Source of the DNA: Candidatus Hydrogenedentes bacterium CG07_land_8_20_14_0_80_42_17
GTDB taxonomy: Bacteria > UBA8481
Direction: 5' to 3'
DNA: 6,253 bases
Assembly (NCBI GenBank): GCA_002780065.1
Contig: PEWQ01000146.1
Coordinates: forward strand, 1-6,253
Positions 3,065 to 6,252 of this stretch are shown here, piece after piece. Made by a program: the position numbers and the translations under genes. Under the pieces are notes generated by a model. It saw only the letters and a program-made list of their open reading frames with translations, ran no database searches and had not been told where the DNA came from. Within the stretch, counting starts at the first letter, position 1. Every line of letters begins with the position of its first letter.

Positions 3065-3165
3065 CCGGAGTCATGCAAGCCACCGAAAACTTTCATTTAT
3101 TATAACTCGTCATGGAGGCACAGGCGTCTCGCGTCAATGGACGTCACGTGTCAAAGAATGTGTGA

Positions 3166-3235
3166 AATAATTGAAAAATGAAAATTGGAAAAATAAAATT
3201 TTCAATTTGCACTTTCCAATTTGCAATTTCAAATA
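3166..3235 (+). repeat. 70-bp dispersed repeat, copy 1
   Basis: This is identical over 70 bases to 6183-6252. The 17 bases upstream (from TCAAAGAA at 3151) also match apart from three substitutions. The repeat is very A+T-rich and contains an imperfect inverted repeat: AAATTGGAAA (3182-3191) pairs with TTTCCAATTT (3213-3222), and weaker pairing extends outward to about 3168 and 3234. Upstream, GCGTCTC occurs in both copies, but copy 1 has about 22 extra bases between it and AAAGAA. No coding sequence is seen. It looks like a short non-autonomous intergenic repeat; it could also act as a bidirectional terminator-like hairpin. Confidence 0.85.
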
Positions 3236-3251
3236 AAATAATATACCAGAT

Positions 3252-3298: not shown

Positions 3299-3341
3299 GC
3301 CTTAGTGGTTTAATTTTATATCGACTTGAATGACGTCGATT

Positions 3342-3521
3342 AAAAAATGTCCCGCAATGGCCGTGAAGCACATCTTTATGGACCCTGTCTAAACAGGTGG
3401 GCACCTCGAGCTCGGTTCAGCTTACCCTTCAAATGAAGAGCTTCGCGTTCCCGTCATGTTAGATTCCCGTCCAATAAAAGTGTTGGGCCAAGAAATCAGT
3501 GCCTCTCGAACCATGCAGGAC
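3342..3521 (-). ncRNA. ssrS: Probable 6S RNA
   Basis: 6S RNA binds housekeeping RNA polymerase holoenzyme, mimicking an open promoter. This stretch is about 50% G+C inside much more A+T-rich DNA and folds as one long rod. By hand I find these pairings: 3348-3352/3518-3522, 3354-3356/3514-3516, 3358-3360/3511-3513, 3368-3371/3499-3502, 3375-3377/3493-3495 and 3383-3385/3485-3487 (closing stem with internal loops). An unpaired stretch 3464-3484 forms one side of a central bubble. Further pairs are 3388-3395/3457-3463, 3399-3401/3450-3452, 3407-3413/3438-3445 and 3416-3419/3434-3437 (apical arm). The small hairpin CCTGT-TTAG-ACAGG (3397-3384), preceded by CCCA, resembles the bubble-side hairpin typical of 6S RNAs. 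The strand is set by a promoter that places the start at about 3521 and by TTTTTT (3347-3342) right after the closing stem. Length and shape fit 6S; another rod-like RNA is the alternative. Confidence 0.72.
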
Positions 3522-3527
3522 AATATA

Positions 3528-3555
3528 ATTCTACTATCTTGATTTTAGTTTTCAA
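3528..3555 (-). promoter_or_regulatory. Sigma-70-type promoter for the 6S RNA
   Basis: On the minus strand TTGAAA (3555-3550, 5/6) and TAGAAT (3533-3528, 5/6) are separated by 16 bases. Six bases after the -10 comes G3521, which is also the first base of the RNA closing stem. The agreement of promoter spacing with the structural end is the main support. Confidence 0.6.
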
Positions 3556-4509: not shown

Positions 4510-4535
4510 AACTTTTTTCTTCTTTTTCCGTCTAA
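4510..4535 (+). promoter_or_regulatory. ECF-type (sigma-E-like) promoter, probably autoregulated
   Basis: AACTT (4510-4514) and GTCTAA (4530-4535) are separated by 15 bases of T/C-rich sequence. These match the conserved parts of the ECF/sigma-E promoter (-35 ggAACTT, -10 GTCTAA) and sit directly upstream of an ECF sigma gene, as expected for self-activation. The -10 overlaps the ATG at 4535, so transcription would begin near 4541 and that ATG could not be used. The -35 lacks the usual GG. Confidence 0.6.
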
Positions 4536-4576
4536 TGGTCAAGGAGATGAAGAACATTGCAGTTATGGGAGCCGTT

Positions 4577-5077
4577 ATGGAGTTTGATTCCAAGCAAAGT
4601 GAAGAGTTCGGCCGACTTTACGCTGAGCACAGAATCAAGCTTCGAAAGAGTGCATATCGACTTACGGGTTCCATGGATGAAGCGGAAGAACTTGTCTCTG
4701 AGGTGTTTTCTCGGGCATTTGAGAAGTATGGGAATTTTCGAAGCGAGGCGTCTTTTGGTACATGGATTTACCGGATTCTTCAAAATCTTGTCTTCGATTC
4801 GTGGAAGAAGCGGACTGAGGAATTGCCTGAAGTCATCGAGGCGAAGCCTTCCGAGCGTCCCGACGCAGTTTTTGAAAGACGGGTGCTGGCTGCTAAAATC
4901 GATGAGGCATTGGTTCGGCTTACGCAAACTCAGCGTCAGGTTTTTTTAATGAGAGAACTCGATGGAATGAGGCACTCTGAGATTGCAAGCAAATTGAATA
5001 TTGCAGAGAGCACATCAAAGGTGCATTACTTCAATGCTGTAAAACGCCTGAAGGAGGAGCTCAATGAATACATCTAG
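4577..5077 (+). CDS. ECF-type RNA polymerase sigma factor
   Basis: A 166-residue sigma-70 family protein with only regions 2 and 4, the hallmark of extracytoplasmic-function sigma factors. Region 2 (about 11-79) includes FGRLYAEH, a helix with DEAEELVSEVFSRAF and the DNA-melting segment SFGTWIYRILQNLVFDSWKKR-like stretch (59-79). A linker (80-109) leads to region 4 (about 110-166), with LTQTQRQVFLMRELDG and the helix-turn-helix HSEIASKLNIAESTSKVHY (133-151). In-frame ATGs lie at 4535, 4547 and 4565. I choose 4577 because GGGAG (4567-4571) stands 5 bases before it, the family start fits, 4535 lies inside the promoter, and AAGGAG abuts 4547 with no spacing. The gene overlaps the anti-sigma gene by 14 bases, so the two are probably co-translated. 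Target genes other than its own operon are unknown. Confidence 0.9.
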   Translation: MEFDSKQSEEFGRLYAEHRIKLRKSAYRLTGSMDEAEELVSEVFSRAFEKYGNFRSEASFGTWIYRILQNLVFDSWKKRTEELPEVIEAKPSERPDAVFERRVLAAKIDEALVRLTQTQRQVFLMRELDGMRHSEIASKLNIAESTSKVHYFNAVKRLKEELNEYI

Positions 5078-5546
5078 AAATTGTTCCGAGTACGAAGATG
5101 CGTTCGGAGCTTTACTTTCGAATGATGCAAGCAAGGATGATTTGCGGCGCGCAAACGAGCATTTATCCCAGTGCTCAAAATGTGCTGAACTTTACGGAAG
5201 CCTTGCGATTTTTAGAGAGAGAGTTTCCGATGTTTATGGTTTTGAGATGCGAAGACCTGTTCGCAAAATTTTCAGATATGCGTATCTCGCCGCGGCGGCA
5301 TCGCTTCTTGTAGGAATTCTGATTTTTAGAGCTGAAAATGGAAACAATAGCGAAGCGGTAAGAACTAATGTTGATTCTTCATTGCTTGCTGTTGCCACAA
5401 ATGACGTTTCTGCTGAAAAAGTTTTTGATGTCGAGCTTACAGATGAGGAAGCAAATTTTATTTTGGAATTTGTTCCGGAAGATTTGCAGGGCGCAAATCA
5501 AAATTGGAATGAGTGGGTTGATAATAACGAGGAGGTATCAGGATGA
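5064..5546 (+). CDS. Transmembrane zinc-finger anti-sigma factor
   Basis: This 160-residue protein should hold the upstream sigma factor inactive at the inner membrane. The cytoplasmic N-terminal domain has the zinc-binding anti-sigma signature: C7 and then H33-x3-C37-x2-C40. One transmembrane helix spans about 72-88 with Arg on both sides (R71, R89), so the N-terminus is inside. The periplasmic part (about 90-160) is acidic, with no Cys and no recognised domain; its end (about 124-160) is rich in Glu, Asp and Asn and is a candidate docking segment for the downstream periplasmic protein (inference). AAGGAGG (5051-5057) is 6 bases before ATG 5064, a strong ribosome site lying inside the sigma gene. 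The stop overlaps the next start as ATGA. Confidence 0.85.
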   Translation: MNTSRNCSEYEDAFGALLSNDASKDDLRRANEHLSQCSKCAELYGSLAIFRERVSDVYGFEMRRPVRKIFRYAYLAAAASLLVGILIFRAENGNNSEAVRTNVDSSLLAVATNDVSAEKVFDVELTDEEANFILEFVPEDLQGANQNWNEWVDNNEEVSG

Positions 5547-6043
5547 AGAATTTTGTTAAGGGCTTAGTTGTGTTTGGAGCATTAGTTTTAGCGGTGAATT
5601 CTGTAAGTGCAGAGAGTGCCGACCGAGGCGGAAATAGAGATGAGGGGCGAGGCCGGGAAAGAATGATTTCAAAAATTGCATTGAAGCTGGATATCGATAC
5701 CGCAACTGCTCAAAAAATGCAGGAGATAATGAAGACTGGGATGGATGCGCGAAAGAAGCTTAGTGAGGAATTGAAGGCGAATATGAAGAGCCTGAAAGAA
5801 CTTGTTGACAAAGGCGCTTCGGAAGCTGAATTGAATGCTCAGATAGATAAAGTTGAGGCAAACAGAGATGCGATTCATTCTGCAATGCTTTCAGGCGGAA
5901 AAGAGATAAGACAATTATTGGGAACTGAAAAGTATGCAAAATGGTTAGTCATGCAGGGAAAAGCAATGTCACAAATGAGAGAGAGACGAGGCGGACAAGG
6001 AGCGAGAAACAGCAACAGAGGCGGTAGAAGCGGCAGAAATTAG
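5543..6043 (+). CDS. Periplasmic Spy/CpxP-like (LTXXQ/metal-resistance type) helical protein with Arg/Gly-rich ends
   Basis: This 166-residue secreted protein has a signal peptide (1-23, cleavage after VSA). The mature part is almost all helix: about 41-145 contains LKLDIDTATAQKMQEIM, long charged helices (DARKKLSEELKANMKSLKELV) and KEIRQLLGTEKYAKWL. This layout is that of Spy, CpxP, ZraP and CnrX relatives, which act as periplasmic chaperones or metal/stress sensors. The classic LTxxQ pair is degenerate (LDIDTATAQ, LLGTEKYAKW), so the assignment rests on layout and context. Arg/Gly-rich stretches flank the helices (28-40 with RGG and GRGRER; 146-166 with RERRGG and RGGRSGR). There is no Cys and little His, so metal binding is not evident. 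GGAGG (5531-5535) lies 7 bases before the ATG, and its start overlaps the anti-sigma stop by four bases. It may feed back on the anti-sigma factor (inference). Confidence 0.75.
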   Translation: MKNFVKGLVVFGALVLAVNSVSAESADRGGNRDEGRGRERMISKIALKLDIDTATAQKMQEIMKTGMDARKKLSEELKANMKSLKELVDKGASEAELNAQIDKVEANRDAIHSAMLSGGKEIRQLLGTEKYAKWLVMQGKAMSQMRERRGGQGARNSNRGGRSGRN

Positions 6044-6100
6044 AGAAGGAGAAGAGGCAGCCGCAGGCTGACCAAAAAGTGTTTACATCTGCCATCGCAA

Positions 6101-6134
6101 CGAAGCAATCTGTTAACATTAAGAGATTGCTTCG
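6101..6134 (+). repeat. Palindromic element of the CGAAGCAATCT family
   Basis: CGAAGCAATCT (6101-6111) and AGATTGCTTCG (6124-6134) form a perfect 11-bp inverted repeat around a 12-base spacer that contains GTTAAC. To the right the sequence continues CTGCCGCTCGCAATGAC (6135-6151). The phrase CATTGCGAG...GAAGCAATCTC is one I recall as a dispersed palindromic repeat in many bacterial genomes. It lies about 60 bases after the last gene and could also stop transcription from either side, though no T-tract follows. Confidence 0.65.
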
Positions 6135-6182
6135 CTGCCGCTCGCAATGACAACAGGAAATTGCGTCTCAAAGAACGTGTAG

Positions 6183-6252
6183 AATAATTGAAAAATGAAA
6201 ATTGGAAAAATAAAATTTTCAATTTGCACTTTCCAATTTGCAATTTCAAATA
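6183..6252 (+). repeat. 70-bp dispersed repeat, copy 2
   Basis: This is identical to 3166-3235 over all 70 bases, in the same orientation 3,017 bases downstream. It carries the same imperfect hairpin (AAATTGGAAA with TTTCCAATTT). Only one base follows before the window ends, and it differs from copy 1, so the right boundary is probably but not certainly here. The left flank from 6168 also matches copy 1 (20 of 23 bases up to the shared ATTG). Confidence 0.85.

Follow-up and report, generated by a model that had tools for sequence, protein, structure and literature searches.

6S RNA, found widely among bacteria, mimics an open promoter and sequesters RNA polymerase. In known members of the family, the apical arm provides a −35-like and the 3′ side of the central bubble a −10-like element; polymerase starts short product RNAs (pRNAs) in the 5′ bubble, and refolding of the RNA frees the enzyme (PMC8876501, PMC4227106). 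The pRNA of B. subtilis 6S-1 starts at nucleotide 40 (PMC8876501) and reads 5′-GUUCGGUCAAAACUA (PMC12005410). In the open-access literature, we found no paper on 6S RNA in Hydrogenedentes.

The stretch of DNA analysed here (the window, 6,253 nucleotides of Candidatus Hydrogenedentes bacterium CG07_land_8_20_14_0_80_42_17) contains a complete 6S RNA gene on its minus strand, at 3521-3342. Specifically, the Rfam covariance model for this family (RF00013, 6S/SsrS) matches 3524-3345 (−) over its full length (cmscan, model positions 1-187 of 187), with 68.5 bits and E = 2e-12, far above the curated gathering score of 46.4 bits. Across the window, cmscan gave no other match on either strand, and none of the other families among the 4227 scanned appeared there at E ≤ 1. 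A first-pass annotation had proposed an unrecognised 6S-like RNA on this strand, and the covariance-model search bears out both the identity and the orientation. No second copy was found in the genome (2.39 Mb, 87% complete). Overall, we place at roughly 0.96 the probability that the locus encodes the only 6S RNA (ssrS) of the bacterium, a promoter mimic that binds and holds the primary-sigma RNA polymerase, which is then released by way of a product RNA.

The locus also has the anatomy of the family, with which it shares the full-length match, a rod with a central bubble, a closing stem, an apical arm, a 3′-bubble hairpin, the CCCACCU motif and a length of about 180 nt, within the family's 180-200 nt form. 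The Rfam structure and our folds agree on this arrangement, as the first-pass annotation had claimed for the rod and its bubble; the predicted energy of 3342-3521 (−) is −63.8 kcal/mol, compared with −49.9 ± 4.45 kcal/mol for shuffled sequences (z = −3.1; 2 of 200 shuffles fold as well). The small bubble-side hairpin reported earlier corresponds to the 3′-bubble hairpin CCUGUUUAGACAGG at 3397-3384, which is conserved as CCUGGUUAGACAGG in a second genome of the phylum (J006, below) and as CCUggaAcagCaGG in the RF00013 consensus region. Among 22 aligned 6S sequences (a MAFFT alignment used for motifs only, being too diverged for safe counting of pairs), CCCACCT in the 3′ bubble and CTG in the closing stem are nearly invariant, and CCAACA is found in 13. 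The features are collected in the table.

Features of the 6S RNA locus (positions in the window; RNA nucleotide 1 = 3521)
Feature	Position	Strand	Basis
6S RNA gene, predicted transcript ~180 nt including T-tract	3342..3521	−	RF00013 match and syntenic homologue with covariation
−35 hexamer TTGAAA of the 6S promoter	3550..3555	−	J006 TTGTAA at equivalent place, same 16-nt spacer
−10 hexamer TAGAAT of the 6S promoter	3528..3533	−	J006 TATAAT
Closing stem, 5′ strand, pairs with 3371-3349	3499..3521	−	Fold; compensatory changes at model pairs 11-176, 12-175, 13-174
5′ strand of P2 helix (RNA nt 27-37), which pRNA synthesis would open in the model	3485..3495	−	Rfam structure, constrained fold
Central bubble, 5′ side, with most of CCAACAC; pRNA synthesis predicted to start at RNA nt 40 = 3482	3469..3484	−	CCAACA in 13/22; likeness to B. 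subtilis 6S-1
Predicted product RNA 5′-GUUGGGCCAAGAAA, complement of 6S nt 40-27	3482..3495	+	By analogy; cf. B. subtilis 6S-1 pRNA
Apical arm and terminal loop (in E. coli, site of the −35-like region)	3399..3468	−	Rfam structure, fold
3′-bubble hairpin CCUGUUUAGACAGG	3384..3397	−	Fold; J006 CCUGGUUAGACAGG; RF00013 consensus region CCUggaAcagCaGG
P2 helix, 3′ strand, RNA nt 137-146; partner is 5′ P2 (ground) or CUUUUAUUGGAC 3480-3469 (collapsed)	3376..3385	−	Constrained folds, both genomes
Closing stem, 3′ strand	3349..3371	−	Rfam structure, fold
U6 tract at 3′ end, one A past the stem	3342..3347	−	Window sequence; J006 has ACUUAUUAUUUUU here

Comparison was made with one other genome of the same phylum, the MAG Candidatus Hydrogenedentota J006 (NCBI name; record RFFU01000013.1), for which we found no papers in the literature. 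Its 6S RNA scores 78.4 bits against RF00013 (L031, 5758-5577) and is the nearest relative found, at 65% identity over 168 comparable Rfam columns. The gene is transcribed away from a cyclophilin gene, which is followed by an ECF sigma gene, and the 6S gene of the window lies upstream of the equivalent genes in the same place and orientation. Of the 45 Rfam pairs that could be compared, 38 are kept in both RNAs: 26 are unchanged, 4 differ on one side and 8 on both sides, the remaining 7 being broken in one or both RNAs. When the 3′ partners were slid by 1-3 columns as a control, the 8 double changes fell to at most 1; a plain MAFFT alignment, not fitted to structure, gave 7-8 double changes under the window's own predicted structure and 0-2 in controls.

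These observations bear directly on the reading of the locus as an inverted repeat arisen by chance or as a 6S copy that has decayed and lost its function. The z-score of only −3.1 and the AT-rich intergenic setting of the gene, close to an interspersed repeat, are what such a reading would draw upon, but the compensatory changes and the promoter conserved relative to J006 argue against it, as does the status of the gene as sole copy in its genome, with no functional paralogue found; we reject it as very improbable. Equally hard to credit is a different structured RNA resembling 6S, such as one like Ms1, which one report describes as structurally related to 6S and as binding the polymerase core (PMC9130861): RF00013 matches over the whole length above its gathering score with no other of 4227 families at E ≤ 1, the CCCACCT and CCAACAC bubble motifs are common to other RF00013 matches, and this candidate was likewise rejected.

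With respect to transcription of the 6S gene, the first-pass annotation's promoter, TTGAAA-N16-TAGAAT, was located at 3555-3528 (−); six nucleotides separate its last base from the G at 3521 that opens the stem. Taken alone, this match could have arisen by chance: a 601-base stretch contains 5 promoter-like sites, versus 2.2 ± 1.3 expected. It is rendered credible by J006, which carries TTGTAA-N16-TATAAT at a nearly equal distance from the stem. In both genes, 16 nt thus lie between the −35 and −10 elements and the promoter ends 6-7 nt ahead of the closing stem; the two elements are kept despite otherwise diverged upstream sequence. At the other end, the six T claimed earlier are present at 3347-3342 (−), but they do not directly follow the stem, whose last base is the C at 3349; an A at 3348 intervenes. 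A strict scan found no intrinsic terminator near the 3′ end, as expected because the rod is not a short-loop hairpin. The conserved promoter spacing and T-rich end emerge from comparing two genomes, and transcription itself is predicted.

Just beyond the T-tract, ATCGACGTCATTCAAGTCGAT at 3320-3340 (−) may fold into a small hairpin that perhaps serves as a second terminator or as a boundary element; J006 shows no apparent counterpart.

In terms of product-RNA synthesis, the conserved CCAACAC places a template C at nucleotide 40, and by analogy the pRNA of the window would start there and read 5′-GUUGGGCCAAGAAA (beginning 5′-GUUGGGCC), similar to that of B. subtilis 6S-1 (nt 40, GUUCGGUCAAAACU). 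When nucleotides 28-40 were blocked, the window and J006 RNAs were both predicted to refold to a collapse helix in which the distal 5′ bubble (CUUUUAUUGGAC in the window, CUUUUGUUGGAC in J006) pairs with the 3′ strand of P2 (GUCCAUAAAG in the window). The prediction of this central bubble collapse helix draws on energy models and on a single A-U to G-C difference between the two genomes. The window RNA is predicted to be of the B. subtilis/Aquifex type in its collapse helix, its nt 40 start and its small 3′-bubble hairpin in the free RNA, a hairpin also present in free B. subtilis RNA (PMC8876501, PMC12005410, PMC4227106). The Escherichia coli 6S RNA shares the overall rod and the general mechanism, whereas its 9-bp 3′-bubble hairpin forms only after P2 opens (PMC8876501) and the shorter one of the window is predicted in the free RNA.

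Two predicted features differ from the B. subtilis/Aquifex type. The P2-enforced ground state and the collapsed state of the window RNA are almost equal in energy (−62.9 versus −63.8 kcal/mol), and in J006 a stronger 5′-bubble hairpin (CCAACA...UGUUGG) would cover the pRNA start site, which is unexpected under a simple open-bubble model. The J006 difference should not be weighed heavily because the analogous weak 5′-bubble pairing predicted in B. subtilis is unconfirmed by probing (PMC8876501). It is unlikely, in our estimation, that the 6S RNA of this lineage acts as a near-balanced switch between P2 and the collapsed form, with a lineage-specific 5′-bubble hairpin partly hiding the product-RNA start; if true, these properties would set a different threshold for polymerase release.

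By analogy with the 6S family, transcription, polymerase binding, product-RNA start, timing and release can be sketched for a locus with the features computed here (gene, fold, covariation, promoter conservation, single copy and a primary-sigma-like gene). A sigma-70-type promoter would drive transcription of the ~180-nt rod, which would imitate an open promoter, bind the primary-sigma RNA polymerase holoenzyme and keep it inactive, presumably as growth slows. Upon return of NTPs, polymerase would begin at about nt 40, with the 5′ bubble strand as template, and synthesis of the short product RNA would open helix P2. The freed GUCCAUAAAG strand could then pair with CUUUUAUUGGAC, collapsing the bubble and releasing the enzyme, a route like that inferred for B. 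subtilis 6S-1 and proposed for Aquifex. Both the window genome and J006 have a gene for a sigma factor with a strong match to sigma-70 region 3, and the large, RpoD-like protein of the window genome is the expected partner of the 6S RNA, its binding being predicted. The record of this RpoD-like gene (L121, G000:C190) reads N right after region 4 (...LKKLRHPTRRRR then X), leaving the C-terminal end unread.

The window RNA is a genuine but ordinary member of its family, with nothing outside the normal range. Since a standard Rfam scan finds it, the gene is not cryptic, and RF00013 was above the cut-off in 25 of the 60 genomes covered by a wider search, so this member is not exceptional. Knowledge of 6S RNA itself is unchanged; what is gained is a well-supported 6S RNA for a barely sampled phylum, kept in place in both genomes examined, and a concrete, testable product-RNA prediction.

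Several further elements were observed in the window. A likely operon at 4535-6043 (+) comprises genes for an ECF sigma factor (4535-5077), a zinc-finger anti-sigma-like protein whose frame overlaps it (5064-5546) and a protein with weak similarity to Spy (5543-6043; NCBIfam E 6e-4, below the cut-off); it resembles an envelope-stress regulon given the cyclophilin gene just upstream. An AT-rich interspersed repeat (about 85-130 bp; some copies partial or tandem-like), possibly a REP/MITE-like element, lies at 3105-3240 and 6164-6252; it has 67 matches in the window genome and none in J006. Many of the copies are found at the ends of contigs, the window's own among them, so the repeat probably breaks assembly. 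A short hairpin-type sequence at 6090-6155, GAAGCAATCT ... AGATTGCTTCG, is presumably of the kind known as intergenic repeats in other bacteria.
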